Assembly: GCF_005877005.1 (NCBI RefSeq)
Contig: NZ_SSNH01000006.1
Coordinates: forward strand, 186,001 to 250,000
Origin: Sinomonas susongensis
Lineage (GTDB): Bacteria; Actinomycetota; Actinomycetes; Actinomycetales; Micrococcaceae
Direction: 5' to 3'
Length of the DNA: 64,000 bases
Shown here in pieces: positions 11,807 through 36,225 of the stretch. The notes beneath the pieces were generated by a model, which saw only the letters and a program-made list of their open reading frames with translations, had not been told where the DNA came from and searched no databases. The number at the start of each line of letters is the position of its first letter. Position 1 is the stretch's first letter. The position numbers and the translations under genes were made by a program.

Positions 11807-12610
11807 CTAGAACCGGGTCCCCGGGCTCCCTGCCGAGCCGCCGAGCCGCCGCGTCACCTCGGCGGCGGTGACGGCGCAGGCCTTCCCGAGTTCCGTGACC
11901 TGTTCGGGGGAGATGCGGAAGCGCGGGGCGGAGATGAGCACCGCGGCGACGACGTCTCCGCGGTGGTCGTGGACGGGAGCGGCGACGCCGACCTCTTCGT
12001 CGGACGTCTCGCCGTAGTTGACTGCGTATCCGCGCTCCGAGACTTCGGCGAGGCGCCGCCTGTAGGCCTCGAACTCGTCGTCGTCCGGGGCGCCTGGGCT
12101 TCCGTGGGCGAGGATCTCGCGCACGCGCTCTGGTGGCTCGCTCGCGAGGAAGACCTGGACGGAGGCCGAGAGCGTGGTCGCGTAGCGCGTGCCGAGGGTC
12201 GTGGTGTGCTTGACCTGGTGGCGGCTCGGGATCTGCTCGACCGAAACCGCCTCGCTCCCGTTCCAGAGGAGGAGGGCGCTCGTCTCGCCGGTCTGCTCGG
12301 CAAGCTCGCGCAGCGCTGGGTAGGCCACGCGGCGCTCGTCGAGGTCCGCGAGGAGCGGCCCGGCGATGCCGATGACGCCGAGTCCGAGCCGGAAACGGCG
12401 GGTCGGCTCGTCACGCTCGACGAGTCCCTCCGACTCGAGGATCGCGAGGATGCGCGACACCGAGCTCTTGTGGAGGCCCACCCGCACTGCGATGTCCGTG
12501 ACGCCGAGCAGCGGTTCGTCCACGCTGAAGCACCGCAGGACCGCAACGGCGTTCGAGATGGGGGAGGCTCCGCGGGGCTCCGCCTGCTCCCCGTTCCCGT
12601 TCTGAGTCAT
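11807..12610 (-). CDS. IclR-family transcriptional regulator
   Basis: A 267-residue IclR regulator. The N-terminal winged HTH runs from about residue 18 (NAVAVLRCFS) through VTDIAVRVGLHKSSVSRILA; the C-terminal effector domain includes TSALLLWNG and GYAVNYGETSDEEVGVAAPV. Start ATG at 12610 is preceded by AAGGTGG with good spacing. It lies downstream of creatinase on the same strand, behind a strong hairpin. It is the best candidate to bind the paired TGCAAC-N3-GTTGCA operators at 15424-15505 in front of the transporter/creatinase genes, with creatine or creatinine as plausible effector; this is inference. Confidence 0.9.
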   Translation of the reverse strand: MTQNGNGEQAEPRGASPISNAVAVLRCFSVDEPLLGVTDIAVRVGLHKSSVSRILAILESEGLVERDEPTRRFRLGLGVIGIAGPLLADLDERRVAYPALRELAEQTGETSALLLWNGSEAVSVEQIPSRHQVKHTTTLGTRYATTLSASVQVFLASEPPERVREILAHGSPGAPDDDEFEAYRRRLAEVSERGYAVNYGETSDEEVGVAAPVHDHRGDVVAAVLISAPRFRISPEQVTELGKACAVTAAEVTRRLGGSAGSPGTRF

Positions 12611-12651
12611 GAATTCCACCTTAGGGGCGCCCTTCGCCAAAACGGACGACG

Positions 12652-12688
12652 GCGGCGCGGCGCCATGGGTGTCATGGCGCCGCGCCGC
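12652..12688 (-). terminator. strong hairpin between creatinase and iclR-type gene
   Basis: A perfect 16-bp stem: GCGGCGCGGCGCCATG (12652-12667) and CATGGCGCCGCGCCGC (12673-12688), 5-nt loop. On the minus strand it follows the creatinase stop by about 20 nt, and GTTTTGG lies 8 nt past the stem. It likely ends the creatinase transcript or attenuates read-through into the regulator. Confidence 0.65.
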
Positions 12689-12708
12689 TGCAGCCGGCAA
12701 GCGGCCTG

Positions 12709-13965
12709 TCAGGCCTCGATGATGTTGTTCTCGGGCCCGAAGCCGAACTTCGTGATGTTCTCGGCCCCGTCCTCGCCGACCACGAGGATGTCGTGCTCGC
12801 GGTACCCGCCCGCCCCCGGCTGGCCCTCGGCCACCGTGATCATGGGTTCCATGGAGACCACCATGCCCGGCTCGAGCACCGTGTCGATGTCCTCGCGCAG
12901 CTCGAGGCCCGCCTCGCGCCCGTAGTAGTGCGAGAGGACGCCGAACGAGTGGCCGTAGCCGAACGTGCGGTTCGGGAGCAGGCCGTAGCCGATGTAGATC
13001 TCGTTGAGCTCGGCTGCGATGTCCTTGCAGACAGCGCCCGGCTTGATGAGCTCGAGACCGCGGCGGTGCACCTCGACGTTGATCTCCCACAGCTCCCGCG
13101 AGCGGGCGTCGGGCTCGCCGAGGAACATCGTGCGCTCGAGGGCGGTGTAGTAGCCGGAGGTCATGGGGAAGCAGTTGAGCGAGAGGATGTCGCCCTTCTG
13201 CAGCTTCCTGGTGGTGGCCCAGTTGTGGGCGCCGTCGGTGTTGATGCCGGATTGGAACCACACCCAGGTGTCGCGGATCTCGGAGTCGGGGAACGTGCGG
13301 GCGATCTCGTGCACCATCGCCTCCGTGCCGATGAGCGCGACCTCGTACTCGCTGATGCCCTCGCGGATCGCGGCCTTGATGGCCTCGCCCCCGAGGTCCC
13401 CGATGCGAGCGCCGTGCTTGATGACCTCGATCTCCTCGGCCGACTTGACCATGCGCTGCCGCATCGCGGCCTGGGAGACGTCCACCAGCGCCACGCCCGG
13501 GAAGGCGCCAGCGATGCGTTCGCGCTGGAGCTGCGGCACGGTGTCGTCCTCGATGCCGAGGCGCTTCGCGTTGATGCCCCGCTGGCGCAGGGCCTCCTGG
13601 AGCCCGAAGTAGTAGTTGTCGCGCCGCCAGTCCGTGTAGACGATGTTCTCGCCATAGCTCCGGCGCCACGGCATGCCAGCGTCGATGTTCGCGGTCACGG
13701 TCACCTGGTCGTCGGGCGTGACGACGAGCGCGTACGAGCGGCCGAAGTACGTGAAGAGGAAGTCGGAGTAGTACTTGATGCTCTGGTACGAGGTGAGGAC
13801 GACGGCGTCCAGCTCCTTCTCGGCCATGATCTGCCGGAGCCCCGCAAGGCGGCGCTCGAACTCGGCGTCCGAGAACGTGAGCGGCTGCTTCGTGCCGTTG
13901 TGGAGGACCTTGAGGCGCTCGAGCTCGGCGACCGAGGTGATGTTGGGGGTCGTGTCGATGGACAT
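12709..13965 (-). CDS. creatinase (creatine amidinohydrolase)
   Basis: Hydrolyses creatine to sarcosine and urea (EC 3.5.3.3). The 418-residue pita-bread-fold protein of the M24 family matches characterised Pseudomonas-type creatinases over the full length, with a 15-residue N-terminal offset. Active-site positions are present: H247 (TDGAHN; H232 in P. putida), E277 (TALERT; E262) and E373 (SMEPM; E358). The N-terminal FTYFGRSYALVVT and the C-terminal AENITKFGFGPENNI are typical. It is not a metal-dependent Xaa-Pro peptidase: the aspartate ligands are absent. Start ATG 13965 follows AAGGAGA. It shares its operon with the MHS transporter upstream. Known Pseudomonas homologues are called creatinase/creA. 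Confidence 0.94.
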   Translation of the reverse strand: MSIDTTPNITSVAELERLKVLHNGTKQPLTFSDAEFERRLAGLRQIMAEKELDAVVLTSYQSIKYYSDFLFTYFGRSYALVVTPDDQVTVTANIDAGMPWRRSYGENIVYTDWRRDNYYFGLQEALRQRGINAKRLGIEDDTVPQLQRERIAGAFPGVALVDVSQAAMRQRMVKSAEEIEVIKHGARIGDLGGEAIKAAIREGISEYEVALIGTEAMVHEIARTFPDSEIRDTWVWFQSGINTDGAHNWATTRKLQKGDILSLNCFPMTSGYYTALERTMFLGEPDARSRELWEINVEVHRRGLELIKPGAVCKDIAAELNEIYIGYGLLPNRTFGYGHSFGVLSHYYGREAGLELREDIDTVLEPGMVVSMEPMITVAEGQPGAGGYREHDILVVGEDGAENITKFGFGPENNIIEA

Positions 13966-14045
13966 GTGTCTCCTTGAGGAAGGGTGTGTGATGGAAGGGG
14001 TCGATGGTGCAGGGAAAGCAGGGGGAAGCAGCTGTGGTCCCGCCG

Positions 14046-15389
14046 CTACTGCGCGAGCGGCTTGCGGGACGTCTCCTTCGCGCAGAGCACGGCGGCCAGG
14101 GAGATGAGCGCGGCGGCCACGAGGTACCAGGCCGGGGCGAGCTTGGTGTGCAGGGCCCCGATGAGGAGCGTGGCCACGAACGGGGCGGTTCCGCCGAAGA
14201 GGGCATTCGCGAGGTTGAAGCTCACCGCGAAGCCCGAATAGCGGATCCGGGTCGGGAAGAGCTCGGCGAGGAAGCTCGGCAGCGTGCCGTCGTTGAGCGT
14301 GAGCATGCCGCCCAGGAAGATCTCGACGAGCAGGATCACGCCGAAGTTGCCCACGTCGAGGAGCATGAACGCGGGGACCGTGAGCAGGGTGAAAAGCACG
14401 GACGCCGTGATCAGGACTCGCTTCCGGCCGAAGCGGTCCGACGCGAGGCCCGTCAGGAAGATGAAGCCGATGTAGGTCACGAGCGCGATCGTCGTGGCTG
14501 CGAAGGACTCCGTCGCGCTGAAGCCGAGCTCGGTCGAGAGGTAGGTCGGCATGTACGAGAGGATCACGTAGAAGCCGACCGCGTTGAGCAGCACGGCTCC
14601 GACCGCGAGCACGAGCGAGGCCCAGTGCCGCGTGAACATGTCCTTGACAGGCGCATGGTCGACCTTGTCCTCTAGGGCGAGTTCGCGGAACACCGGGGTG
14701 TCCTCGAGCTTCGTCCGGATGTACCGCCCGATGAGCCCCATGGGTGCCGCGAGGAGGAACGGGAGGCGCCAGCCCCATTCGGCCATCTGCTGGGCGTTCA
14801 GGACGACGGAGAGCACGGCCGCGAGGAGTGAGCCGAGCAGGAGGCCCGCTGCCGTCGAGGCGGGGACGACCGCGGCGTACATGCCGCGGCGGTGGGCGGG
14901 GGCGTACTCGACGAGGAAGGCCGAGGCTCCCGCGTACTCTCCCGCTGCTGAGAAGCCCTGGATGACGCGGATGACAAGAAGGATGATGGGCGCCCCCATG
15001 CCGATGAGGCTGTACGAGGGGATGAGTGCGATGCAGAAGGTCGCGCCGCTCATGATCAGGATCGAGATCGACAGGGCTGTGCGGCGGCCGATCCGGTCGC
15101 CGATGTGCCCCCATACGAAGCCGCCGAGGGGGCGGACGAAGAACGAGATCGCGAAGACCGCGAACGTCGCGAGGAGGGCGGTCCGCTTGTCGGAGTCGGG
15201 GAAGAATGCTGCTGCGATCGTCGAGGCGAGGTAGCCGTAGACGGCGTAGTCGAACCATTCGACGAAGTTGCCGATGAAGCTGCCCCAGAGGACCCGGCGG
15301 CGCGCATCTTTGCTGAGGCCGGTCGGGAGCGGGGTCCTGCTGTCGGGGGAGGTGCTGGGTGCTGCAAGAGGGGAGTCGTCAGTGCTCAT
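14046..15389 (-). CDS. MHS-family MFS transporter (probable creatine/creatinine-related uptake)
   Basis: A 447-residue, 12-TM metabolite:H+ symporter of the ProP/KgtP-like MHS subgroup. GNFVEWFDYAVYGYLA in helix one and the loop GHIGDRIGRR (motif A) are diagnostic. ATG 15389 is preferred (GGTGG upstream); four more codons are possible. Because it is cotranscribed with creatinase behind a creatinine-island promoter, creatine, sarcosine or betaine-like compounds are plausible substrates; the sequence alone does not decide. The 80-nt gap to creatinase holds only that gene's ribosome binding site. Confidence 0.88.
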   Translation of the reverse strand: MSTDDSPLAAPSTSPDSRTPLPTGLSKDARRRVLWGSFIGNFVEWFDYAVYGYLASTIAAAFFPDSDKRTALLATFAVFAISFFVRPLGGFVWGHIGDRIGRRTALSISILIMSGATFCIALIPSYSLIGMGAPIILLVIRVIQGFSAAGEYAGASAFLVEYAPAHRRGMYAAVVPASTAAGLLLGSLLAAVLSVVLNAQQMAEWGWRLPFLLAAPMGLIGRYIRTKLEDTPVFRELALEDKVDHAPVKDMFTRHWASLVLAVGAVLLNAVGFYVILSYMPTYLSTELGFSATESFAATTIALVTYIGFIFLTGLASDRFGRKRVLITASVLFTLLTVPAFMLLDVGNFGVILLVEIFLGGMLTLNDGTLPSFLAELFPTRIRYSGFAVSFNLANALFGGTAPFVATLLIGALHTKLAPAWYLVAAALISLAAVLCAKETSRKPLAQ

Positions 15390-15423
15390 GGAAACCACCA
15401 AGGGGGATTCTGGGGTTGCTATG

Positions 15424-15505
15424 GATGCAACGCTGTTGCATCAGATTACGAGTGGTCCAGATCACGGTCAAGGGTTAATCTCGCTCAGTGCAACGTCGTT
15501 GCATC
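15424..15505 (-). promoter_or_regulatory. promoter flanked by two identical palindromic operators
   Basis: On the minus strand TTGACC (15466-15471), a 17-nt spacer and TAATCT (15443-15448) form a candidate promoter for the transporter/creatinase pair. TGCAAC-N3-GTTGCA occurs twice: at 15426-15440, directly downstream of the -10 box over the expected start site, and at 15489-15503, upstream of the -35 box. Centres are 63 bp apart, about six helical turns. The -35 box overlaps the creatininase stop codon. The two-site arrangement fits an IclR-family regulator that represses or loops. Confidence 0.7.
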
Positions 15506-16292
15506 TGGAGGGTTCCGGGAAAGCCCTGCCGATCGCCTCGGTGAGTGCCGCCGTCGTCCGCTCGAGCAGCAGGCGCCCCGCCTCCTTCGAGGCCCGCGCC
15601 GCCGAGGAGAGGCAGCCGGAGGCGGGGGTGAGTTCGCTGCGGACCGGCAGGACGTCGTAGCGCGGCAGCTCCGCCGGCGGGAGGTCCATGACGCGGCCTA
15701 GGTCCACGAGCTGCGGGCAGAGGTGGAGCATGAGCGACGTCTCGAGGACCCCGCCGTGTTCGACCTCCCACCCCGGGAAGCTCCCGGCGTAGACCTCGTC
15801 GAGAGTCGCGTCGTCCACGAAGTCCCAGTAGGAAACGAGCATCGCCTCGACGCCTGGGCCGCCTCCGGTCCGCAGGGACAGCTCCGTCGTCGCGAGCTCG
15901 ACCCCTTCGTAGAGGAACTGGTAGTTCTCGAAATGGCCGTTGAGGAAGACAACCCGCTCGGCCCCGTGCCGCGCGAACTCGAGGGTGAGGGAGCGGGCAA
16001 TGGCGATCATCGTGGTGGCGTCGAGGCTCGTCGTGCCGCCGAGGTGGTTGCCGCCGCCCGAGCGCTGCTGCGACTTGTACCCGTACACGATCGGAGCGGC
16101 CACGAGCGCTCCGAGGGCCTCCGCCAGCCGGCCGCTCACAGCACGGGCGAGCAGGACGTCCGTGGTGAGGGGGAGGTGCGGGCCATGCTGTTCGACGGAC
16201 CCCACGGGGACGATGACGAGCCGGCCGCCCGTCGCGAGGCGCTCGCGGTAGGTGAAGGCGTCGAGGTCCTCCATGAAGACGCTCGTGCTCAT
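15468..16292 (-). CDS. creatininase (creatinine amidohydrolase)
   Basis: Interconverts creatinine and creatine (EC 3.5.2.10). The 274-residue protein has the metal ligands at the same positions as P. putida creatininase: E34 and H36 (VEQHG), D45 (TTDVLL), H120 and E122 (NGHFEN). YGYKSQQRSGGGNH and SYWDFVDD are creatininase-specific, arguing against the related FAPy or mycofactocin MftE-type members. Start ATG 16292 overlaps the NCS1 permease stop (ATGA), so uptake and first hydrolysis are coupled. The 3' end contains one copy of the operator palindrome. Confidence 0.94.
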   Translation of the reverse strand: MSTSVFMEDLDAFTYRERLATGGRLVIVPVGSVEQHGPHLPLTTDVLLARAVSGRLAEALGALVAAPIVYGYKSQQRSGGGNHLGGTTSLDATTMIAIARSLTLEFARHGAERVVFLNGHFENYQFLYEGVELATTELSLRTGGGPGVEAMLVSYWDFVDDATLDEVYAGSFPGWEVEHGGVLETSLMLHLCPQLVDLGRVMDLPPAELPRYDVLPVRSELTPASGCLSSAARASKEAGRLLLERTTAALTEAIGRAFPEPSRCNDVALSEINP

Positions 16293-17833
16293 GATGCCTC
16301 CTCGAGGGGTGCATTCTGGAGGGCTGCCGGCGCGGTCGGTGCCTGCTCGAGGGCGAGGTACTCCGCGTCGGTGAGGTCGGTGCGGATCCCGAGGGGGATG
16401 TGATGGGCGATGCGGGTCCGGAAGCGGAAGTATCCGAGCCCGAAGTAGACGGCGGCGGAGGTTGCGGTCCCTGCGAGCCACGAGAGGTCGACGCCGCCCA
16501 TGGCCGTGGCGATCGGCCCCTGGAAGATCGGGAGGGTCCCGTACATGAACATCCACGTCATGACGAGCCCCGCGCCGAACGCGATGAGCGCGGCCGGGTT
16601 CACTGCCTTGAGCCGCGTGTCGCGGGGGCTCAGGAACAGGTAGCTGTAGTCGCTGTGCCTGCGTTCGAAGATGAAGTAGTGTACCGCCATGATCCCGCCC
16701 CACGTGGCGACCCACGCGACGATCGTGCCGAGCCAGTTGTCGAGCAGGGTCGCGAAGTCCTGGGCGAAGAGGAACAGGACCACGGCGGCCATCGACAGGC
16801 ACCCGACCACGATCGAGAGCTTCTTGCGGGAGATCCTGATGTCGAGGGCCTGGGTGGCGACGCCGAACGTGTACAGGTTGATGATGTTCGTCGCGATGGG
16901 GCCGTGGATGACGAGCAGGATGACCGGGACGGCGAGGGCCCCGAAGCTCTTGACCACGAGCTCGCCCGGATCGGCTGTGCCGTTCATGGTCGCGAGGCTC
17001 GCTCCGAGGAGGCCCAGCCACACCACGGGGAGGAACTGGCCGAGGACCGACGTGAGGTAGAGCTTCGTGCGGGGGATGCTCTTCGAGACGAAGCGGGAGT
17101 AGTCCGGGGCGTACGTGAACCAGCCGATGCCCCACCCGATGCCGATCACGGTCATGATGCCGGACATGGCTGCGAATCTGGCGTCTCCGGTCAGGATGTG
17201 GCCCGGCTGCCCTTGGTACCCCCAGTCGATGTGGAGCTGGGTCCACGCGATGACGGACATGGCGACGAGGACGAGGAGGGTCGGCGGCATCGTGATGCGC
17301 TCGAACTTGGCGATGGCACCGTAGCCCCGGTAGCAGATGGCGACCTGGACGCTCATGATGATCGCGGCGACGACGACCCTCCACGCGATGTTCTGCTGGT
17401 TCGGGTCCACCCAGCCGAGCTGGCCGAAGAGCGCCATGACGAGGTCGAGGATGACCCACGTGTTGACGGCGGACCATCCGACCGCGACGATCGCCTGGAT
17501 CGCCGCCGGCAGGTACGCACCCCGCCGGCCGAACGCACCGCGGGCGAGGAGCATGCCGGTCGCGCCGGTCTTCTGCCCGAGGAGGACGAAGAAGCCGAAG
17601 CCGAGCATGCCGATGGCATTGCCGATGACGAGGACCGTCATGGTGTCGGCGAGCCCTAGGCCGAGCTGGATGCCGAGGGCTCCGAGGATCCAGTTGATGG
17701 GGGCGACGTTTGCTCCCGCCCAGATCCAGAACTGCCCCGACACCTTCGTCGTGCGGGCGGACTCGGGAATGGGCTGGAGGACGTCTTCGACGCTGTGGGT
17801 AGCGCTCTCGGAGCGCTGGGGTTCGAGGCTCAT
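16289..17833 (-). CDS. NCS1-family permease (probable creatinine/cytosine-type uptake)
   Basis: A 514-residue nucleobase:cation symporter-1 family transporter with about 12 TM segments. Helix one contains WIWAGANVAPINWILG, and GIGWGIGWFTYAPDYSRF is a typical NCS1 block. Start ATG 17833 follows AAGGTGG. Overlap with the creatininase start points to creatinine as the transported ring compound; creatinine and cytosine are chemically similar and CodB-like proteins are known near creatininase genes. It is transcribed divergently from the PucR-type regulator, which probably controls it. Confidence 0.9.
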   Translation of the reverse strand: MSLEPQRSESATHSVEDVLQPIPESARTTKVSGQFWIWAGANVAPINWILGALGIQLGLGLADTMTVLVIGNAIGMLGFGFFVLLGQKTGATGMLLARGAFGRRGAYLPAAIQAIVAVGWSAVNTWVILDLVMALFGQLGWVDPNQQNIAWRVVVAAIIMSVQVAICYRGYGAIAKFERITMPPTLLVLVAMSVIAWTQLHIDWGYQGQPGHILTGDARFAAMSGIMTVIGIGWGIGWFTYAPDYSRFVSKSIPRTKLYLTSVLGQFLPVVWLGLLGASLATMNGTADPGELVVKSFGALAVPVILLVIHGPIATNIINLYTFGVATQALDIRISRKKLSIVVGCLSMAAVVLFLFAQDFATLLDNWLGTIVAWVATWGGIMAVHYFIFERRHSDYSYLFLSPRDTRLKAVNPAALIAFGAGLVMTWMFMYGTLPIFQGPIATAMGGVDLSWLAGTATSAAVYFGLGYFRFRTRIAHHIPLGIRTDLTDAEYLALEQAPTAPAALQNAPLEEAS

Positions 17834-17964
17834 GGGCCACCTTCTGGGGCAGAAGCAGGGCGGTTTGGGGGATTCGATACAGAGGGCCGGCCGGCTTGCG
17901 ATCCAGCCTAGATGTGGCACGCAGCACACCATAGATTCACTTCGTCACCTCTCTCGTCGCTGCG

Positions 17965-17981
17965 GGTGACAGAGCGTCACC
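17965..17981. promoter_or_regulatory. interrupted palindrome in the NCS1/pucR divergent region
   Basis: GGTGAC-N5-GTCACC occupies 17965-17981, and another GTCACC copy lies at 17944-17949. On the plus strand GTGACA (17966-17971) could be a -35 box for TAAGAT at 17991 (19-nt spacer), so a protein bound here would cover the regulator promoter. It is a candidate PucR operator. Confidence 0.45.
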
Positions 17982-18050: not shown

Positions 18051-19568
18051 TTGTCCGTACCCCTCGAAGAGGTCCTCGGGAGTGAACCTCTGCGCTTCGG
18101 CGACCCCGTCGTCGTTGCCGGCGCCGAAGCCGTCGCCCGCAAGGTGGTGCGCTGGGTCCACTCGAGCGAGGTGGTCCAGATCGCTCCGCTCCTGCGCGGC
18201 GGCGAGCTGCTCCTCACGGGAGGCCAGGCCTTCCTCGCGCTGCGCCCCGGCGCCCAGCTCGAATATGTCCGCAGCCTCGCGGAGCGCGCCGTCGCCGGCG
18301 TGGCCGTCGAGACCGTCGGAGGGCGCCTCCTTCCCAGGGCCGTCCTGGAGGCCGCGGACGAGCTCGGGCTCCCGCTCGTCGAGCTGCGGCGGGTCGTGCC
18401 GTTCGTCGAGGTGGCGGAGTCAGTCAACCGGCGGATCGTCTCCCGCCAGGTCGAGGCGCTCCAGACCGCGGACGCCCTCTCGCAGCGGCTCGCCGAGCGC
18501 ATGGCGGTCTCCGGGTCCGCCCTGCGGCCGATCCTCGAGTTGACGGCGCAGGCGCTCGGGGCGGCGGTCGCCGTCGTCGATCCCGCCCTGGGGATCCTCG
18601 AAGCAGCGGGAGACCAGGCAGCGGGCGCGCCGGCGCAGGAAGGCGGGGCGTTCGCGAGCGTCGGGCTGAGCGTGGGAGGCGTCGACGTCGCCCGGCTCGA
18701 GCTGCGCGGCGGTCCCGACGTCGACGCGTCACTGCTCGAGACCGTCGCCCAGCGGGTCAGGGGGATCGTGGCCCTCGCGCTCGCCCAGCGTCATAGGCCC
18801 AGCTTGGCGCGCATGGCCGACGACGCGCTCATGCGGATGGTCGTCGCGGGAGGGGGCGGCGACCAGCTCGTCGAGCTTGCCGAGGCATCGGGCCTCGCGG
18901 CCGACGCCCCGGTCGCCGTCGCGCTCTTCCAGGCGTCGGCCGACTCGCAGCCTCGCGGCGCCGTCGAGCGCGCGCTCAGAGGCGCTGGCGCTCGGGCTCG
19001 CCTCCACACCGACGGCGAGACCACCATCGCCCTCGTCGCGCTCACCGCGCCTCGCGCCCCGGCCGAACGGGCGGGCCTCATGGCCGCCCTCCGCGAGGCG
19101 CTGGCCCGGACTGGGACCGTGGGCGCCCTGGGGCCTACCGCGCCGACCATCCGAGGAGCGTCGTCCTCGCTGGCCGAGGCCCGCACGACCCTGCGCCTCG
19201 GCCGTGCCTCGAAATGGGACCATGCGGTGTACGACAGTGCCGACTTCGTCGTCGAGCGCTTCGCCGAGCGCGAGCTCTCCCGCACGGCAGCCGAGGCTCT
19301 CGTGCAGGAGACGCTCGGAGCGGTGATTGAGCTCGAGCAGCGCCGGGGCGGCGAACTGGTCCGCACCCTCGACGTCTGGATCACGGCGGGCTGCAATACC
19401 GCAGACGCTGCTCGCATCCTGTTCCTCGAGCGGCAGAGCCTGCACAAGCGGCTCGCGCGGATCTTCGACGCCCTCGGCGGGGATCCTCGCGGCACGGGCC
19501 GGCTGGGTGCCCTCGCGTTCGCCGTCAAGCTCGCCCGGGGCAACGCCCAGCTGCGCGACGGCGCGTGA
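18051..19568 (+). CDS. PucR-family transcriptional regulator
   Basis: A 505-residue PucR/CdaR-type regulator. The N-terminal PucR domain spans about residues 1-130 (EVLGSEPLRFGDPVVVAG, HSSEVVQIAPLLRGGELLLTGG). The C-terminal HTH_30 domain is in the last 70 residues (TLDVWITAGCNTADAARILFLERQSLHKRL). The start is TTG 18051, supported by GGAGG at 18039-18043. Members often activate purine, allantoin or related nitrogen-compound catabolism; divergent placement next to the NCS1 permease and creatininase suggests control of creatinine uptake. Confidence 0.9.
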   Translation: MSVPLEEVLGSEPLRFGDPVVVAGAEAVARKVVRWVHSSEVVQIAPLLRGGELLLTGGQAFLALRPGAQLEYVRSLAERAVAGVAVETVGGRLLPRAVLEAADELGLPLVELRRVVPFVEVAESVNRRIVSRQVEALQTADALSQRLAERMAVSGSALRPILELTAQALGAAVAVVDPALGILEAAGDQAAGAPAQEGGAFASVGLSVGGVDVARLELRGGPDVDASLLETVAQRVRGIVALALAQRHRPSLARMADDALMRMVVAGGGGDQLVELAEASGLAADAPVAVALFQASADSQPRGAVERALRGAGARARLHTDGETTIALVALTAPRAPAERAGLMAALREALARTGTVGALGPTAPTIRGASSSLAEARTTLRLGRASKWDHAVYDSADFVVERFAERELSRTAAEALVQETLGAVIELEQRRGGELVRTLDVWITAGCNTADAARILFLERQSLHKRLARIFDALGGDPRGTGRLGALAFAVKLARGNAQLRDGA

Positions 19569-19603
19569 TGCGCGCTGGCCACCGCGTGAGCCACAGTGGA
19601 GGC

Positions 19604-20062
19604 ATGCAGCCTCAGCTCATCCAGTTCCTGGCCGCCCTCGCCAACAGGCGTTCTCGGGCGCGCTTCGCCGAGATCGTGCGGGGAGGGCACGACGGCGTCG
19701 CCCAAGACGAGCGTCAGGATCGCCTCCTCACCGCGGCCGGGGTCCTGAAAGCGGACCCCCATGGGCGGGTGACTGTCGACGACGATGCCCTTCACACGCT
19801 GCTGTCCGAAGCCCGTGCGGCCCTTCCCGAGAAGCCGAGCGGAAAGCTCGAGCAGCTCCCGCGCCAGCACAGGCATCGGCACGAGCTGCTGCGGGAGCTG
19901 GGAGCGGATCTCCTGGGCCCCGACGAGGAAGTCTCCGAGGCGGAGTTCAACGCGCGGCTCGGAACAAGGGTCGACGACGTCCCGGGGGTGCGCCGCGCGC
20001 TGGTCGACGAGGGCGTCGTCGACCGCAAGCGCGACGGCAGCGGATATTGGCGGGTTCCGTAG
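19604..20062 (+). CDS. DUF2087 domain-containing protein
   Basis: A 152-residue protein with an N-terminal helical/winged-helix-like segment (LIQFLAALANRRSRARFAEI) and a C-terminal DUF2087 region (VSEAEFNARLGTRVDDVPGVRRALVDEGVVDRKRDGSGYWRV), commonly found in small actinobacterial regulators. GGAGG sits very close to ATG 19604; GTG 19565 or ATG 19568, overlapping the PucR stop, are alternative starts giving coupling. Function is unknown; DNA binding is plausible from the fold only. Confidence 0.72.
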   Translation: MQPQLIQFLAALANRRSRARFAEIVRGGHDGVAQDERQDRLLTAAGVLKADPHGRVTVDDDALHTLLSEARAALPEKPSGKLEQLPRQHRHRHELLRELGADLLGPDEEVSEAEFNARLGTRVDDVPGVRRALVDEGVVDRKRDGSGYWRVP

Positions 20063-20090
20063 CCTCGCAGCGGATGTGGCACACCCGTCC

Positions 20091-20107
20091 TAGGACTGCG
20101 AGTCCTA
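20091..20107. promoter_or_regulatory. perfect 7-3-7 palindrome upstream of HTH regulator
   Basis: TAGGACT-GCG-AGTCCTA (20091-20107) lies about 47 nt upstream of the start of the helix-turn-helix gene at 20154. Position and symmetry suggest an autoregulatory operator. No second copy was noticed in the window. Confidence 0.5.
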
Positions 20108-20153
20108 CCTTGCGCGTGGAAGACGACCCCCCATTGGGGCCAGAATGGAGTGC

Positions 20154-21089: not shown

Positions 21090-21566
21090 GCAGTCGGCGT
21101 CGCTGATTCGCGCCGCGCCGGCCTTGGCCGTCGTCGACGATTGGTGCATTCGGCAGCGCGCTGCGGCTTTCTGGGTTGTCGAAGCCTACGAGTGCGAGGG
21201 CCATCAGGGCAGTGTGTTCCATGTTCCTCTTCTTGCTCTCACGGGCCCCTGCCTCGGTAAGGGCAGCGGCCCGGCGCACGGGCGCGCGGCTGCACGCCCC
21301 CAGTGGGGGTCCGGGTGGACGGTGAGCCGAGCGCACTCTTCGGGCGGCGGTCTCTCGGTCCGGTCGCCCCGGCGCGGTATGCATTCAACGCTACTTGAAG
21401 GCAGCTCCCAAGGCTCCACGTGAGGCGCGCCCTGCGCTTCCTAGGAGTGGGAGGCCTAGGCTGCCGGGGGAGACGCGGGTGGTATCCCGACCCAGCCGGG
21501 ACAATGCCGGTGCATGATGGGGAGCGACGGACTCGCGCCAGGCCCCACTCCTAGGAGGACCGATTG
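21090..21566. other. intergenic stretch without a supported gene
   Basis: About 480 bases with no frame that resembles a known protein. A minus-strand frame from ATG 21220 has a fair ribosome binding site but runs antisense into the HTH gene and is unrecognised. The ribosome binding site AGGAGG (21553-21558) of the aldo/keto reductase lies at the right end. Short CTAGGAG repeats occur near 21441 and 21551; their meaning is unclear. Confidence 0.5.
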
Positions 21567-24203: not shown

Positions 24204-24352
24204 AGCCGGACTAGGGCCCCAAGCGACGATCAAGCGCCGTAGGCAGCGGCGGGAGGTCGGTCGAAGCGCTGCCCCTGAGGGTTGGCTGGCCCATCGCGGG
24301 CGTCCCCTGCCAGGTTCTCTCCAGCAGAGCGCGGACTACAGCAGAGCGGGAA

Positions 24353-25027: not shown

Positions 25028-25056
25028 CCCCAGACGTCCCTTCCCTCGGCAGATGG

Positions 25057-25109
25057 TTGACATCGTCCTTCAACGTCAATCATACTCGTGCACAGACTTT
25101 GATATATCA
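25057..25109 (+). promoter_or_regulatory. promoter and GntR-type operator of the glyA-sox operon
   Basis: A perfect -35 box TTGACA (25057-25062), 18-nt spacer and CATACT (25081-25086; five of six matches) precede glyA. A 10-bp palindrome TGATATATCA (25100-25109) lies about 8 nt after the expected start site, an arrangement suited to repression by the divergently encoded GntR protein. Confidence 0.7.
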
Positions 25110-25159
25110 GTCTCATACCAGTTGTTGAAAGTCTCTATGACACAGCAGAGGAGGACGCA

Positions 25160-27750: not shown

Positions 27751-28071
27751 ATGATCCTCATCAGCTGCCCGAACTGCGGGCCTCGCGACGAGACCGAGTT
27801 CCACTACGGAGGCCAGGCCCACGTCGCCTACCCCGAGGACCCCTACGCCCTCACCGACGAGGAGTGGGGCCGCTACCTCTTCTACCGCGAGAACCCGAAG
27901 GGCCTCTTCGCCGAGCGCTGGGTCCATTCCGGCGGCTGCCGGAAGTGGTTCAACGCCATCCGCGACACCACCACCTACCGCATCGCCGCGGTCTACCGCA
28001 TGGGCGAGACCCAGCCTTCCCTCGTCTCGGGCGAGAAGACGGGCGAGAAAATCGCAGGAGGAGCCAAATGA
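27751..28071 (+). CDS. soxD: sarcosine oxidase, delta subunit
   Basis: A small 106-residue zinc-binding subunit. [14 protein letters not shown] carries two cysteines of the zinc site; [18 protein letters not shown] is the conserved block with the third cysteine and a histidine. The ribosome binding site AAGGA lies 8-9 nt upstream, and the stop overlaps the soxA start (ATGA). Confidence 0.95.
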
Positions 28072-31010
28072 GCCGCCAACCGTTCCGCCTACGCGAGGGC
28101 GGCCGCGTCGACCGGTCGACGGAGCTCGAGTTCACCGTCGACGGCCGCACCTACACGGGCCACCCGGGCGACACCCTCGCTTCTGCGCTGCTGGCCGCAG
28201 GCGTCGTCGAGACCGCGCCGTCCCTCTACCTCGACCGGCCCCGGGGTATCGTCGCCGCGGGTGTCGAGGAGCCCAACGCACTCGTGAAGGTGAGCCGTCC
28301 CGGCCACTCGACCACCGAGTCGATGCTCCCCGCCACGACCGTCGAGCTCGTGGAGGGGATCGAGGCCCAGTACCTCTCCGGCCTCGGCCAGCTCGACCCC
28401 GCCGAGGACACCTCGGTCTACGACAAGAAGCACGTCCACGCTGACGTCCTCGTCGTCGGCGGGGGGTCCGCGGGCCTGGCTGCCGCCCGCGAGGCCGCAG
28501 CCACGGGTGCCCGCGTCGTCCTCATCGACGACCAGCCCGAGCTGGGCGGCTCGCTCCTCGCGGACCCGCGGGCGGAGATCGCGGGCCGGCCCGCCCTCGA
28601 ATGGGTCGCCGCCATCCGGCAGGAGCTCGACGCCGCGCCCGAGGCGACCGTGCTGACCCGCACGAATGCCTTCGGCAGCTACGACTCCAATTACGTCATC
28701 GCGCTCGAAAATCGCACCGACCACTTGGGTGCCAAGGCCACAGGCCCCGAGCTCGCAGGCGTCTCGAGGCAGCGCCTCTGGCACATCCGCGCCCGGCAGG
28801 TCGTCCTCGCGACGGGCGCCCACGAGCGGCCGCTCGTCTTCCGCAACAACGACCGCCCCGGGGTCATGCTCGCCGCGGCGGTCCGCACCTACCTGAACCG
28901 CTACGGGGTCGCCGCCGGGTCTCGCGCCGTCGTCGCGACGACGAACGACAGCGTGTACCCGCTGGTCGCCGAGCTCGCCGCGGCGGGTCTCCAGGTCGCC
29001 GCCGTCGCGGACGCCCGGCCCGAGCTCTCCCCCGCAGCCAAGGCAGCGCAGGCCGCCGGCGTCGTCGTCCTTCCCGGCACGGCTGTTGTAGACACAGCGG
29101 CAGGCGCCGGGGGGACCGCGCGCGTCGCCTCTGCGACGGTCCAGGCGATTGACGACGACGGCACACCGCGTAGCGGAGAAGGCAGCAGCCAACAGGTCAT
29201 CCCCTGCGACCTCGTCGCCGTCTCAGGCGGCTGGAGCCCGGTGGTGCACCTGCACAGCCAACGCCAGGGCAAGATCCGCTGGGACGACGACCTCGTCGCG
29301 TTCGTGCCGTCGGGCGCCGTCGAGGGGCAGCAGATCGTGGGCTCGGCGCGTGGCAGCTTCGTCCTCGAGGACTGTCTTGCCGAGGGCACCACTGCCGGTG
29401 CGGTCGCCGCGTTCAACGCGGGCTTCGTCAACGAGGGCGGGGAGCACGCGATCGCCGTCGCGGGCACAGCCCTGCACGTGAGCGGGAAGACCCGCCCGCT
29501 CTGGGTCGTGCGCGCCGAGGACGGCAGCCTCGACGGGCTCGACGAGCACTTCGTGGACCTCCAGCGCGACCAGACCGTCAAGGACGTCCTCCGTGCGACC
29601 GGCGCGGGCATGCGGAGCGTCGAGCACGTGAAGCGGTACACCTCGATCAGCACCGCGAACGACCAGGGCAAGACGTCCGGGGTCAACGCGATCGGTGTGA
29701 TCGCGGCCGCGCTCAACAACGGATCGACCCCAGGCGAGGTCGGCACCACGACCTACCGCGCCCCTTACGCTCCGGTCGCGTTCGCTGCCCTTGCGGGGCG
29801 CGAGCGGGGCGAGCTCTTCGACCCCGCACGCCTCACCTCCATCCACCAGTGGCACGTCGAGCACGGCGCCGAGTTCGAGATCGTGGGCCAGTGGCTGCGG
29901 CCGTGGTTCTACCCGGAGCCAGGCGAGTCGATGGACGACGCCGTGCTCCGGGAGTGCGCGGCCGTCCGCACCTCGGTGGGCATGATGGATGCGACGACCC
30001 TCGGCAAAATCGAAATCTGGGGCAGGGACGCCGGCGAGTTCCTCAACCGCGTCTACACGAACGCCTTCAAGAAGCTCGCGCGGGGCTCGGCCCGCTACGG
30101 GGTCATGTGCACCCCGGACGGGATGATCTTCGACGACGGGGTCACCCTGCGCATCGACGACAACCGCTATTTCATGACGACGACGACGGGCGGCGCCGCG
30201 CGCGTCCTCGACTGGCTCGAGGAGTGGCACCAGACCGAGTGGCCTGGGCTCGACGTGAACTTCACGTCCGTCACCGAGCAGTGGACGACGGTCGCCGTCG
30301 TCGGCCCGAAGTCCCGAGCGGTCATCGCCAAGCTCGCCCCGGAGCTCGACGTCGACAACGAGGCCTTCCCGTTCATGGCCTTCCGCGAGACGAGGCTGGC
30401 CTCGGGGATCCCGGCCCGCGTGTGCCGCATCTCGTTCTCGGGCGAGCTGGCCTTCGAGGTCAACGTCTCGGGCTGGTACGGGCAGCAGGTCTGGGAGGAC
30501 ATCTACGAGGCCGGGGCCGAGTTCGGGATCACCCCGTACGGCACCGAGACAATGCACGTCCTCCGTGCCGAGAAGGGCTACCCGATCGTCGGCCAGGATA
30601 CCGACGGGACGGTGACCCCGCAGGACGCCGGCATGGAGTGGATCGTCTCGAAGGCGAAGGACTTCATCGGCAAGCGGTCCTACTCGCGGGCCGACGCCGT
30701 CCGTACCGACCGCAAGCACCTCGTCTCGCTCCTGCCCGTCGACCCGACGTTCCGGCTTCCCGAGGGAACCCAGCTCGTCGAGGCGGGGATCAGTGTGAAT
30801 CCCGCCTACGGCCCCGTGCCGATGCTCGGCCACGTGACGTCGAGCTACCACTCCGCGGCGCTCGGGCGGTCCTTCGCCCTGGCCCTGATCAAGAACGGCC
30901 GGAACCGCATCGGCCAGACCCTCGTCGCCCCCGTGGGCAACCAGCTCGTCGACGTCGTCGTCGGCGATACCGTCCTCTACGACCCGGAAGGGAAGCGCCG
31001 AGATGGCTGA
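28068..31010 (+). CDS. soxA: sarcosine oxidase, alpha subunit
   Basis: A 980-residue multidomain subunit. The N-terminal ferredoxin-like segment ([25 protein letters not shown]) is followed by a dinucleotide-binding domain ([16 protein letters not shown]). A C-terminal GcvT-like aminomethyltransferase domain from about residue 600 ([25 protein letters not shown]) binds THF. It captures the methyl group as 5,10-methylene-THF. Start ATG 28068 follows AGGAGG (28056-28061); an open frame further upstream is out of register with soxD coding and not real. Length is normal for the family. Confidence 0.96.
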
Positions 31011-31617
31011 GCAGACCCTCATCGCCCCTATCACCGAGCTGCGCCGCAGCCCTGCAGCCCACCTCGCCGCCGAATTCGCGGCGGCTGAGGTGGCGGGCCC
31101 GTACAGCGTGGCCCTGCGCGAGGTCCCGTTCCAGACCATGGTCGGCCTCCGTGTCGCGCCGGGCACGGACGCAGCGCGCCGCGTCGAGGAACGGCTCGGC
31201 ACGGCGCTCCCGGCTCGCTGTGGCGAGGTCGCCCAGGGCGCGGACAGCTCGGTCCTGTGGCTGGGTCCCGACGAGTTCCTCGCCGTCTCCTCAGCCGACC
31301 CGGCGCACGCGACCGCCCACCTCGTCGAGGCCCTCGGCGGCGACCCGGGCTCCGTCGTCGACCTCTCAGCGAACCGCACTACATTCGAGCTGAAAGGCAC
31401 GGCGGCGCGCGACGTCCTCGAAAAGGGCTGTCCGCTCGGCCTGCACCCCCGCGCGTTCGCGGTCGGCTCGGCGTACGCCACCCAGCTGGGCCCGGTGCCG
31501 ATCCTCCTCTGGAAGACCGGCAGCGACTCGTGGGAGATCTTCCCGAGGGCCTCGTTCGCGGACTACCTGGGGCGTTGGCTGCTCGACGCGATGCGGGAAT
31601 TCCATGCCGCCCCGTGA
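31003..31617 (+). CDS. soxG: sarcosine oxidase, gamma subunit
   Basis: A 204-residue subunit overlapping soxA by 8 nt. LWLGPDEFL and [15 protein letters not shown] are typical of SoxG, and the C-terminal [19 protein letters not shown] is conserved. It completes the soxBDAG order. The stop lies 14 nt inside purU. Confidence 0.94.
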
Positions 31618-32443
31618 GTACGTCCTGACGCTCGACTGCGCTGAGCGGCTCGGGATCGTGTACGCCGTCTCGGGGTTCCTCGCGGAGCATCGGTGCGACA
31701 TCCTCGACATCAAGCAGTACGGCGACCGCCGGGGCGGGCACTTCTACATGAGAGTCCACTTCGAAGCACCCGGGCCGCTCGAAGCCGACTTCGGTCCGGT
31801 GGCGGAGCAGTTCGGCATGACGTGGCGCCTCCGCCCGGCCGGGGAGAAGACCCGCGTCCTGCTCATGGTCTCCAAGTTCGGCCACTGCCTCAACGACCTG
31901 CTCTTCCGGTCGCGGATCGGCGAGCTTCCCGTCGATATCGTGGCGGTCGTGTCGAACCACGAGGACCACCGGGGACTCGTGGAGTGGCACGGCATCCCGT
32001 ACCACCACATCCCCGTGACGCCGGGCGCAAAGCAGGAGGCGGAGGCCAAGCTCCTCTCCCTCGTCGACGGGTACGCGGTGGAGCTCGTCGTGCTCGCACG
32101 CTACATGCAGGTGCTCAGCGACGCCCTCGCCACGCGGATGACGGGCCGGGTGATCAACATCCACCACTCGTTCCTGCCGTCGTTCAAGGGCGCGAAGCCG
32201 TACCACCAGGCATGGGAACGCGGCGTCAAGACGGTCGGCGCCACGGCCCACTACGTCAACGCCGAGCTCGACGAGGGCCCGATCATCGCCCAGCAGGTCA
32301 TCGAGGTCGATCACACCCACTCGCCCGAGGACCTCGTCGCCGTCGGCCGCGATGCGGAGTGCAAGGCCCTCAGCAACGCGGTCCGGTGGCACTGCGAGGG
32401 CCGGGTCATCCTCAACGGAAACCGCACGGTGGTGCTCCGATGA
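31604..32443 (+). CDS. purU: formyltetrahydrofolate deformylase
   Basis: Hydrolyses 10-formyl-THF to formate and THF. The 279-residue protein has an N-terminal ACT domain ([20 protein letters not shown]) and a C-terminal formyltransferase fold with [12 protein letters not shown] and [10 protein letters not shown], including the catalytic Asn/His/Asp set. It overlaps soxG by 14 nt. In sarcosine operons it recycles THF when methylene-THF production exceeds demand, releasing formate, which the YdeP-like gene downstream may oxidise. Confidence 0.95.
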
Positions 32444-32462
32444 GCACGGAAGGAGCTCTTTC

Positions 32463-33839
32463 ATGGCACTGAGCGCACTCGACATGTTCTCGGTCGGCAT
32501 CGGACCCTCGTCGTCGCACACCGTGGGGCCGATGCGGGCCGCGGCAATCTTCCTCGACGGGCTCCGTTCGGGTGGCCTCATGGGCGACGTCGAACGGGTC
32601 CGGGCGGAGCTGTTCGGCTCGCTCGGCGCGACTGGGCACGGCCACGGCTCGGACAAGGCCGTGATCCTGGGCCTTCAGGGCGAACGGCCGGAGACCGTGG
32701 ACACCGACACGGCCGACGCGCGGGTCGCCCAGGCCACCGCCGAGGGCAAGCTGCTGCTCGCGGGAGAGCGGTACATTCCGTTCTCCCGCGGGGATGAGGT
32801 CGTGATGCACCGACGTCGGTCGCTCCCCGCCCACCCGAACGGGATGGTCTTCAGGGCGTACGACGGCGGGGGCTCCCTTCTGCGGGAGGCGACCTTCTAC
32901 TCCGTCGGCGGGGGCTTCGTCGTCGACGAGGACGCTGTCGGCTCGGACCGGATCGTCGAGGACTCGACCCCGCTGCCGTACCCCTTCACGACCGGCGCCG
33001 AGCTGCTCGCACATTGCCGCCGCGAGGCCATGAGGGTCAGCGACATCATGCTCGCGAACGAGCTCGCCTGGCGCACGGAGGAGGAGCTTCGCGCGGAGCT
33101 CCTCCACATCTGGGCTGTGATGAAGGAATGTGTGCGCAACGGCTGCACCCGCACGGAGAAGCTCCTCCCCGGGGGCCTGAAGGTTCCGCGTCGAGCGCCG
33201 AAGCTGCTCGCGGACCTCGAGGCCGCCGACGACCAGACCGATCCCATCCGTGCGATGGACTGGGTCAATCTCTTCGCGCTCGCAGTGAACGAGGAGAACG
33301 CTTCGGGGGGACGGATCGTCACCGCGCCCACGAACGGTGCGGCCGGAATCGTTCCCGCTGTCCTGCACTACTACGAGAAGTTCGTCCCGGGGGCCGACGA
33401 CGACGGCGTCGTGCGCTTCCTGCTCACCGCCGCAGCGGTGGGGATCCTGTTCAAGGAGAACGCCTCGATCTCGGGCGCGGAGGTGGGGTGCCAGGGCGAG
33501 GTCGGCTCCGCCTGCGCGATGGCCGCCGGCGGCCTGTGCGAAGTGATGGGCGGGAGTCCGGAGCAGGTTGAGAACGCCGCCGAGATCGGCATCGAGCACA
33601 ACCTCGGGCTCACCTGCGATCCGGTGGGCGGGCTTGTGCAAATCCCCTGCATCGAGCGCAATGCTGTGGCCAGCAACAAGGCCATCAACGCTGCCCGGAT
33701 CGCGATGCGGGGCGACGGCAGCCACAAGGTCTCCCTCGACAAGGCGATCAAGACCATGCGCGAGACCGGGGCGGACATGAAGGTCAAATACAAGGAGACC
33801 TCGCGTGGCGGGCTCGCCGTGAACGTCATCGAGTGCTGA
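32463..33839 (+). CDS. sdaA: L-serine ammonia-lyase
   Basis: Iron-sulfur L-serine dehydratase giving pyruvate and ammonia. The 458-residue single-chain protein has [20 protein letters not shown] at the start and three cysteines for the 4Fe-4S cluster in [21 protein letters not shown] and QIPCIERN. Start ATG 32463 follows AAGGAG; the frame stays open upstream inside purU but without a ribosome binding site. It is the last step turning creatinine carbon into pyruvate. A weak hairpin (GAGGTCC/GGACCTC, 33838-33859) overlaps the stop. Confidence 0.95.
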
Positions 33840-33921
33840 GGTCCTCCGCACCGGACCTCCGACGCCGCGAGACGCGCGACTGGCAGGAGGCGGCTCTAGT
33901 TCAGCATGGAAGGATGGGCTT

Positions 33922-36225
33922 GTGTTTGCGCAGAAGCCGGTTGTTGGGGATATCGATGAGGGTGCCCTCGAGGTTCATGCCCCGAAGACCGATGCGGCGG
34001 GGGTGAAGGCGGTGAGGGTCGCGCTCGGGCGTGGCCTCGCCCAGGCCGGTGTGGCTCGGACGGTGCGTTCGATGCTGCGGGTGAACCAGCGGGACGGGTT
34101 CGACTGCCCGGGGTGTGCGTGGCCGGAGTCGATCACCGACAGGCGCAAGCCGGCGGAGTTCTGCGAGAACGGGGCGAAGGCGATCGCGGAGGAGTCCACG
34201 CTCCGGACCGTGGGCCCGGAGTTCTGGGCGGCGCATCCGGTCGCGGAGCTCGGGGGCAGGAGCGAGTTCTGGCTCGGGTCGCAGGGCCGGATCACCGAGC
34301 CGGTCGTGATCCGGCCGGGGGAGACGCATTACAGCCCGATCTCCTGGCCGGACGCGTTCGCCCTGATCGCCGATCACATCAGGGCCACGACTCCTGAGAG
34401 GTGCGTGTTCTACACCTCGGGGCGGACGGCGAACGAGACCGCGTTCCTGTACCAGCTCTTCGCCCGCTCGCTGGGGACGAACAACCTCCCGGACTGCTCG
34501 AACATGTGCCACGAGTCCTCGGGGGCCGCGCTGAACCCGACGATCGGCATCGGGAAGGGCACGGTGTCCCTCGAGGACATCCACCGCGCGGACCTGGTCC
34601 TCGTGGTGGGGCAGAACCCCGGCACGAACCACCCGCGGATGCTCTCGGCCCTCGTGGAGGCGCGGAAGAACGGCGGGAAGGTCGTCGCCGTGAACCCGCT
34701 GCCGGAGGCCGGGCTGCTGGGGTTCAAGGACCCGCAGTCGGCCGCGGGCCTGGTCGGCGGCGGGGCGAAGGTGGCCGACGAGTTCCTGAAGATCAGGGTC
34801 GGCGGGGACCTTGCCCTGTTCCAGGCCCTGGGCCACCTGCTGCTGGCGGCTGAGGAACGCAGCCCGGGCACCGTCGTCGACCGGGCCTTCGTCGAGGCGC
34901 AGACCGAAGGGTTCGAGGCCTATGCCGCCGCCCGCGCCGCGGTGGACTGGGAGGCGACGGAACGCGCGACGGGGCTGTCCCGGGCGCAGATCGAGGCCGT
35001 CGCCCAGATGATGGCCGCCTCGAAGGCCACGATCGTGTGCTGGGCGCTGGGGCTCACGCAGCAGCCGCACTCGGTGGACACGCTCAAGGAGATCGTGAAC
35101 CTGCTCCTGGTCCAGGGGAACTTCGGAACGCCCGGGGCCGGGGCGTGCCCGGTGCGGGGCCACTCGAACGTCCAGGGCGACCGCACGATGGGGATCTGGG
35201 AGAAGCCGACCGAGAAGTTCATCGCCGCGCTCGAGGCCGAGTTCGGGCTCCCGTTCCCGCGCGATCACGGGTTCGAGTCGGTCGGGACCCAGCACGCCCT
35301 GGAGGCCGGGGAGGTGGACGTGTTCGTCTCGATGGGCGGGAACTTCCTCTCCGCCGCCTCGGACACCGCCCACACCATGGCAGGGCTGAAGCGGACCGGG
35401 CTGACCGTGCACGTCTCCACCAAGCCGAACCGCTCACACGTCGCGCACGGGCGCACGTCCCTGATCCTGCCCACCCTGGGCAGGACCGACGTCGACGACA
35501 AGCACCCCGCCGGGCGCCAGTTCGTCTCGGTCGAGGACTCGATGTCCGTCGTGCACGCCTCGCAGGGCCGGCTCCGCCCAGTCTCCGAGCACCTGCTCGC
35601 CGAGCCGGTCATCGTCGCGCGCATGGCCCAGGCCGTCCTGGGCGACGCGCACCCGATCGACTGGCGGGCCATGGCCGAGGACTACGACGTGATCCGGGAC
35701 CACATCTCCCGGGTGATCCCCGGGTTCGAGGACTACAACACCCGGGTCAGGGGCAGGAACGGGTTCGTCCTGCCCTCCCCGCCCAGGGACACCCGCACGT
35801 TCGCCACCGAGGCCGGCAAGGCCCGTTTCACGGTGTCCCCGCTCGAGTACCTCGAGGCTCCCGAAGGGCACCTGATCCTGCAGACCCTGCGCTCCCACGA
35901 CCAGTACAACACCACGGTCTACGGCCTCGACGACCGCTACCGCGGCATCAGCAACGCCCGCAAGGTGGTCCTGGCCAACCCCGAAGACCTCGCCTCGCTC
36001 GGGTTCGCGGACCGCGAGCTCGTCGACGTCGTCTCCGTCTTCAACGGCGACGAGCGCCGCGCCGAAGCCTTCCGCATCGTCGCCTACCCCACCGCCAAGG
36101 GCTGCGCCGCCGCCTACTTCCCCGAGGCCAACGTCCTGGTCCACAAGGACCTCGTCGCCCGCGGGTCCAACACCCCCGGCTACAAGGCCGTCACCATCAG
36201 ATTCGAAAAGCGCTCCGACGGCTAG
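33922..36225 (+). CDS. FdhF/YdeP-family molybdopterin oxidoreductase (formate dehydrogenase-like)
   Basis: A 767-residue bis-MGD-type oxidoreductase of the YdeP subfamily. Features: N-terminal GFDCPGCAWPE cysteine pair and EFCENGAKAIAEE, YTSGRTANETAFL, SNMCHESSG, the GTNHPRML cofactor-binding segment and a C-terminal LRSHDQYNTTVYG domain. GTG 33922 follows GAAGGA. Selenocysteine is not needed here. Family members are annotated as formate dehydrogenase alpha-like, but activity is rarely shown. Position behind purU and sdaA suggests disposal of formate or formaldehyde from sarcosine; no partner subunit is adjacent. Confidence 0.9.
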   Translation: MFAQKPVVGDIDEGALEVHAPKTDAAGVKAVRVALGRGLAQAGVARTVRSMLRVNQRDGFDCPGCAWPESITDRRKPAEFCENGAKAIAEESTLRTVGPEFWAAHPVAELGGRSEFWLGSQGRITEPVVIRPGETHYSPISWPDAFALIADHIRATTPERCVFYTSGRTANETAFLYQLFARSLGTNNLPDCSNMCHESSGAALNPTIGIGKGTVSLEDIHRADLVLVVGQNPGTNHPRMLSALVEARKNGGKVVAVNPLPEAGLLGFKDPQSAAGLVGGGAKVADEFLKIRVGGDLALFQALGHLLLAAEERSPGTVVDRAFVEAQTEGFEAYAAARAAVDWEATERATGLSRAQIEAVAQMMAASKATIVCWALGLTQQPHSVDTLKEIVNLLLVQGNFGTPGAGACPVRGHSNVQGDRTMGIWEKPTEKFIAALEAEFGLPFPRDHGFESVGTQHALEAGEVDVFVSMGGNFLSAASDTAHTMAGLKRTGLTVHVSTKPNRSHVAHGRTSLILPTLGRTDVDDKHPAGRQFVSVEDSMSVVHASQGRLRPVSEHLLAEPVIVARMAQAVLGDAHPIDWRAMAEDYDVIRDHISRVIPGFEDYNTRVRGRNGFVLPSPPRDTRTFATEAGKARFTVSPLEYLEAPEGHLILQTLRSHDQYNTTVYGLDDRYRGISNARKVVLANPEDLASLGFADRELVDVVSVFNGDERRAEAFRIVAYPTAKGCAAAYFPEANVLVHKDLVARGSNTPGYKAVTIRFEKRSDG

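Follow-up and report, generated by a model that had tools for sequence, protein, structure and literature searches.

Results

Genes of the creatine and creatinine modules

The window analysed here is a 64,000-nucleotide stretch of the 3.77 Mb Sinomonas susongensis genome (contig 33, 186001-250000), and our subject is a set of genes within it for the breakdown of creatinine, a waste product of muscle. Gene calls rest on Pfam and NCBIfam profile matches, and the reaction chemistry of the enzyme families concerned is established. We consider it highly likely that these genes form a catabolic island of three modules, of the creatinine-degradation kind known from actinobacteria, with regulation as proposed below. 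Two of the modules, for creatine and for creatinine, comprise the following features (window positions):

11807-12700, minus strand: IclR-family regulator, proposed creatine-operon repressor (PF01614, PF09339)
12709-13965, minus strand: creatinase, creatine amidinohydrolase (phmmer E 5.6e-166 to 1chm)
14046-15401, minus strand: MHS-type MFS symporter, proposed creatine importer (TIGR00883 400.5 bits, below the cut-off of 443.45)
15426-15440: perfect palindrome TGCAACGCTGTTGCA, proposed IclR operator, 2 bp past a promoter-like pair on the minus strand
15489-15503: TGCAACGTCGTTGCA, another perfect palindrome, within the creatininase gene at its 3' end
15468-16292, minus strand: creatininase, creatinine amidohydrolase (TIGR04448, PF02633; phmmer 1.1e-78 to 1j2t)
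16289-17932, minus strand: NCS1-family permease, proposed creatinine importer (PF02133, over cut-off)
17965-17981: weak candidate for a PucR site, a GGTGAC-N5-GTCACC palindrome between the divergent PucR and NCS1 genes
18051-19568, plus strand: PucR-family regulator (PF07905, PF13556)
19565-20062, plus strand: DUF2087 protein downstream of PucR (PF09860), which occurs in some Sinomonas relatives

The product of 12709-13965 is a predicted creatinase, which would split creatine into sarcosine and urea. Its residues H247, E277 and E373, which we take to be the catalytic His/Glu/Glu (H232, E262 and E358 in Pseudomonas putida), are intact in an alignment to 1chm. Loss of the M24 dimetal ligands is a criterion for creatinase, and three of the five ligand positions, as we take them to be in prolidase, are replaced in an alignment to 1pv9. 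That the protein is instead an Xaa-Pro peptidase or another M24 hydrolase is scarcely credible. It matches 11 NCBIfam families (peptidases, ectoine hydrolases and a DMSP (dimethylsulfoniopropionate) lyase), none of them a creatinase model and all below cut-off; however, its best dipeptidase or peptidase match reaches only E 1.8e-25, so far from the 1chm value that, together with the replaced ligands, it leads us to reject a peptidase identity.

The adjoining MHS gene is found next to creatinase, creatininase or IclR in many relatives. The IclR protein has both a helix-turn-helix and a C-terminal IclR domain, and its true start probably lies somewhat inside the listed frame. Next to iclR, at 10300-11799, is a gene for a DHA2-type MFS efflux-like transporter that falls under the cut-off for every NCBIfam family among the matches listed (25 of 61); its counterpart neighbouring the locus in S. 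humi is 93% identical.

Creatininase scores 312.5 bits against the curated TIGR04448 equivalog cut-off of 235, and E34, H36, D45, H120 and E122, presumably its metal ligands, are all intact in the alignment. The NCS1 permease gene overlaps the creatininase start by 4 bp; its product matches the cytosine permease 7qoa weakly and reaches 142 bits against the TIGR00800 cut-off of 353. A search of 36 PucR/NCS1 gaps, the window included, for a PucR operator found no one element kept throughout. The GGTGAC-N5-GTCACC palindrome is present with at most one mismatch in 16 of them (0.45 expected from the locus background) and exactly in nine, and a second type, TGTGGC-N4-GCCACA, is present in eight.

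A palindrome in front of the creatine operon

TGCAACGCTGTTGCA and TGCAACGTCGTTGCA, 63 bp apart centre to centre, are two perfect copies of a TGCAAC palindrome, TGCAACNNNGTTGCA, that lie ahead of the MFS-creatinase-IclR operon; the genome has no other perfect copy. A pair of matches with no more than two mismatches arises in 36 of 100 shuffles of such a window, which alone is not unusual. A creatininase scan gave 93 hits, of which the best 80 were kept, making up 79 loci, mostly from Micrococcaceae; a same-genus set comprised 15 Sinomonas genomes. Allowing one mismatch, TGCAACNNNGTTGCA has 81 sites in 52 of the 79 loci, and six control palindromes of equal composition have 0, 3, 6, 1, 1 and 1. 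All but three of the 81 sites lie within 400 bp upstream of an MHS, creatinase or creatininase gene, the three being upstream of glyA only. Every creatinase-bearing Sinomonas genome (12 of 12) has a site within 1.6 kb of creatinase.

The palindrome tracks IclR more than PucR. With IclR counted as present at 50% identity or more, TGCAACNNNGTTGCA occurs in 46 of 48 loci with IclR versus 6 of 31 without, and in 29 of 38 loci with PucR versus 23 of 41 without. Two loci have IclR without the palindrome: L028, where there is only a 34-residue IclR fragment, and L064.

It is quite improbable, in our judgement, that the palindrome serves another regulator, PucR or a global one, rather than the linked IclR. 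The six loci that have it and no IclR nearby speak for such a regulator, as do one-mismatch sites away from the island genome-wide; yet the association with PucR is weak, and each of these six genomes has an IclR relative elsewhere, at 51-64% identity. This came from a search for IclR in 17 whole genomes, which covered nine of the 25 loci with neither IclR nor TGCAACNNNGTTGCA. Eleven of the 17 genomes had a hit, and in nine of them the surroundings of an IclR gene lying elsewhere were read: six of these stretches carry the palindrome upstream of their own MHS gene, two (L151 and L158) are truncated where their contigs end, and the IclR-MHS stretch of L160 lacks it, a true miss that favours the other-regulator account.

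The position of the sites relative to promoters bears on how the linked IclR would act. We used 77 of the 81 sites, those that have sufficient DNA ahead of them and are followed by an MHS, creatinase or creatininase gene in forward orientation; three glyA-only sites and one before a reverse-strand gene were dropped. In 55 of the 77, a -35/-10 pair with a score of 9 or more out of 12 ends shortly before the palindrome, versus 2.3% of shuffles, with a gap of 2-5 bp from the -10 box in the rows listed. The window has the pair TTGACC-17-TAATCT on the minus strand, 2 bp before TGCAACGCTGTTGCA. A position just past the -10 box suggests a repressor acting at the start site.

Several observations weigh against assigning the palindrome to IclR in this way. 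The loci share descent, and counts over them are not independent. Genome-wide at up to one mismatch, the 15 Sinomonas have 40 sites against 28 for the control, so little above it that the evidence for TGCAACNNNGTTGCA is positional; by coordinate reading, creatinase is no more than 1.6 kb away from 18 of the 40, among them all six perfect sites. L064 has a full-length IclR match and no palindrome, in a locus that begins just before creatininase. L160 is the true miss already described. Among the nine genomes whose locus has neither IclR nor the palindrome, four have an IclR relative elsewhere and five do not. The promoter-like pair of the window scores only 8 of 12, and the stricter scan reported none there.

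The sarcosine module and its own element

The third module, for sarcosine, lies on the far side of an interval described below:

24353-25063, minus strand: GntR/FCD regulator, divergent from glyA (PF00392, PF07729)
25100-25109: palindrome TGATATATCA, proposed GntR operator, between gntR and glyA
25160-26485, plus strand: glyA, serine hydroxymethyltransferase (PF00464)
26482-27702, plus strand: soxB (TIGR01373 621 bits, cut-off 529)
27751-28071, plus strand: soxD (TIGR01374, over cut-off)
28068-31010, plus strand: soxA (TIGR01372, over cut-off; phmmer E 0 to 1vrq and 2gag)
31003-31617, plus strand: soxG (TIGR01375, over cut-off)
31604-32443, plus strand: purU, formyl-tetrahydrofolate deformylase (TIGR00655, over cut-off)
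about 32472-33839, plus strand: sdaA, L-serine ammonia-lyase, start approximate (TIGR00720 687 bits, over cut-off)

The open reading frame of sdaA from 32352 starts too early, because the TIGR00720 match begins at residue 41. A second glyA on contig 23 makes the one in the island one of two.

TGATATATCA occurs once in the S. susongensis genome. It is present in 21 of 25 gntR-glyA gaps, those of the window and of 24 loci, with L005, L014, L037 and L045 lacking it, and in 23 of the 28 loci with glyA. All 28 copies in the 79 loci precede gntR, glyA or soxB by 400 bp or less, and five control 10-mers, four of them palindromes, have no copy there. Across the 15 Sinomonas genomes there are 16 copies, with none of the control. 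Less favourably, only five of the 14 soxB-bearing Sinomonas have a perfect copy about 1.4 kb before soxB; of the other nine, G005, G011 and G012 have one about 13 kb before it. In S. gamaensis (G007, contig 32:167086 and 172745), two more perfect copies are found past soxB, at distances of about 9 and 15 kb, which suggests further GntR targets.

Arrangement in relatives

Creatininase is over cut-off in 12 of the 15 Sinomonas, creatinase is found in the same 12, and soxB is over cut-off in 14. In 11 of the 12, one contig carries soxB and creatininase, oppositely oriented and separated by 5.9-29.5 kb; G008 has them on separate contigs. Fifty-nine loci extend 9 kb or more upstream of creatininase. 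Of these, 49 encode a creatinase at over 75% identity and 27 a SoxB at over 70%; every one of the 27 also has creatinase, and its sox genes run divergently from the creatininase gene. The creatine and sarcosine blocks are neighbours in relatives.

We hold it possible, if rather unlikely, that the sox block is a general module for sarcosine, dimethylglycine or betaine that merely adjoins the creatinine genes, the linkage being inherited and not functional. Two genomes speak for this and against a dedicated island: G009 and G013 have soxB over cut-off without creatinase, and therefore the sox module is not specific to creatinine. The varying spacing in Sinomonas and the absence of soxB upstream of creatininase in 22 of the 49 creatinase loci fit the same view, whereas the presence of soxB in all 12 creatinase-bearing genomes among the 15 searched and the divergent orientation in 27 of 27 loci argue for the association. 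The idea that the blocks are unrelated neighbours only partly survives this check.

Between the modules lies the following interval:

20052-24352: lineage-specific interval with an MmyB-type regulator, an aldo/keto reductase, a FAH-family hydrolase and an SDR
20145-21089: the MmyB-type regulator of the interval

In one S. gamaensis locus (L003), the counterparts of window positions 19401-20051 and 24353-25299 are separated by about 120 bp; therefore the 4.3 kb interval is absent at this place in S. gamaensis, where a different contig carries the best FAH relative (85%). In G014, similarity runs to about 21468, past the MmyB-type gene, and is followed by about 3.6 kb of other DNA before the gntR flank. 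Judged by these alignments, the interval is a site of lineage-specific insertion or loss, in either direction. Its ends have no clear flanking repeat, just short, imperfect or scattered pairs.

These comparisons bear on the sequence-only reading, made from the letters of the window before any search. It had listed creatininase, creatinase, two transporters, glyA-soxBDAG-purU-sdaA and a YdeP-like gene, all of which the profile searches found; it had called the eight residues named above intact, as they are; and it had every step from creatinine to pyruvate encoded, for which the enzyme families are in place. Its three regulators, IclR, PucR and GntR, are there, and the MmyB-type regulator makes a fourth. 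It had called the interval genes fucose-type: the genes are present, but the label rests on NCBIfam matches below curated cut-offs. It had also proposed that the two blocks, being set apart by those genes, may be separately controlled. Each block is preceded by a different conserved palindrome, and these two, as predicted regulator binding sites, support separate control of the creatine and sarcosine steps; the interval is not the basis for it, because it is lineage-specific and the blocks are neighbours in relatives.

Outside the island, at window positions 2413-9289, is a run of genes of amino-sugar type: an SSF symporter, members of the N-acetylglucosamine 2-epimerase and glucosamine isomerase families, a SIS domain protein, an amidohydrolase and a ceramidase-like protein. 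A LacI regulator follows at 9286-10275.

Urease and the FdhF/YdeP oxidoreductase

The window lacks urease, as the sequence-only reading had said, and the genome search it proposed finds a single urease alpha gene on contig 23, with the genes for gamma, F, G and D beside it. Urease beta and alpha are fused in frame in one 724-residue open frame (contig 23:36506-38680; L154:8507-10681), with beta at about 11-113 and alpha from about 148; gamma is a separate gene. Several other Sinomonas have open frames of at least 719 residues around urease alpha. Urease alpha is over cut-off in 12 of the 15 Sinomonas; G010, G011 and G012 have creatininase and creatinase and no urease alpha match in the genome.

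One further gene follows sdaA:

33922-36225, plus strand: FdhF/YdeP-family molybdopterin oxidoreductase, possible formate dehydrogenase (TIGR01701 902 bits, cut-off 582)

The protein fails the formate dehydrogenase equivalog (TIGR01591, 252.5 against 666.25 bits), which leaves its assignment at the subfamily level only. Its C196, H197 and R412 align with the Cys, His and Arg of FDH-H that we take to be catalytic, and its first 110 residues hold only three cysteines (62, 65 and 81). FdhF is over cut-off in 13 of the 15 Sinomonas. One of the 13, G001, lacks any match to creatininase or creatinase and has no soxB that passes the cut-off. The membership of FdhF in the island is weakened by this distribution: the YdeP-like gene is present after sdaA, as first read, but in other Sinomonas it is not a dependable member of the island, to which it is only loosely linked.

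Discussion

We propose that the island works as three modules in series. In the first (PucR, NCS1 permease, creatininase), creatinine would be taken up and opened to creatine. In the second (MHS symporter, creatinase, IclR), creatine would be taken up and split into sarcosine and urea; IclR, bound to TGCAACNNNGTTGCA immediately past the -10 box, would probably repress the operon to which it belongs, and might be released by creatine or a related metabolite. In the third (GntR, glyA-soxBDAG-purU-sdaA), sarcosine would yield glycine and methylene-tetrahydrofolate, then serine and pyruvate, and surplus formyl-tetrahydrofolate would be shed as formate; GntR probably acts at TGATATATCA. The urea would pass to the urease encoded elsewhere in the genome. 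From sequence, we infer the transporter substrates, the regulator ligands and DNA binding, repression over activation, and the operation of the route in this strain.

More broadly, creatinine catabolism in Micrococcaceae is probably under a local, substrate-by-substrate relay, with IclR acting at TGCAACNNNGTTGCA and GntR/FCD at TGATATATCA. This IclR subfamily would then be a dedicated creatine-operon repressor beside the transcription start and GntR/FCD would control the sarcosine module, local control taking the place of the nitrogen-regulator control of Corynebacterium. If the operators are true, they would account for the way in which soil actinobacteria turn on each step of the route separately, and they would offer testable cross-genus regulators that may sense creatine and sarcosine and be useful for biosensors. 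Clinical creatinine assays use enzymes of the same kind as those of the island.

Within a coverage that left out most subscription papers, our literature search found no link between IclR and creatinine or creatine degradation, and nothing on Sinomonas and creatinine or on NCS1 creatinine/hydantoin transporters. A full-text search for creatinine, creatinase and IclR returned no paper, and thus PMC8864220 does not name IclR.

Comparison with known systems

The island enzymes are of a known kind, since creatinine clusters are already in print: the available part of PMC8864220 describes creatine/creatinine clusters in Arthrobacter sp. AQ5-05, Pseudomonas putida and Corynebacterium glutamicum, and cites the creatinine gene cluster of Arthrobacter sp. 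TE1826 (Nishiya et al. 1998). The latter, as far as its title tells, represents clustered creatinine-degradation genes in a close relative. In the three clusters, an MFS transporter usually lies beside creatinase or creatininase, as here (PMC8864220, in part). With CreT-kind creatine transporters, the MHS protein shares an MFS gene linked to creatinase, a likeness of gene linkage alone. According to a figure legend in PMC8864220, AQ5-05 and P. putida have a heterotetrameric sarcosine oxidase, as does the window, where all four subunits of the enzyme known from 1vrq and 2gag, soxBDAG, score over curated cut-offs in one gene run. Control is where the systems differ: the same part of PMC8864220 gives C. 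glutamicum ATCC 14067 AmtR, a TetR-family nitrogen regulator, whereas the island has its own local IclR, PucR and GntR genes.

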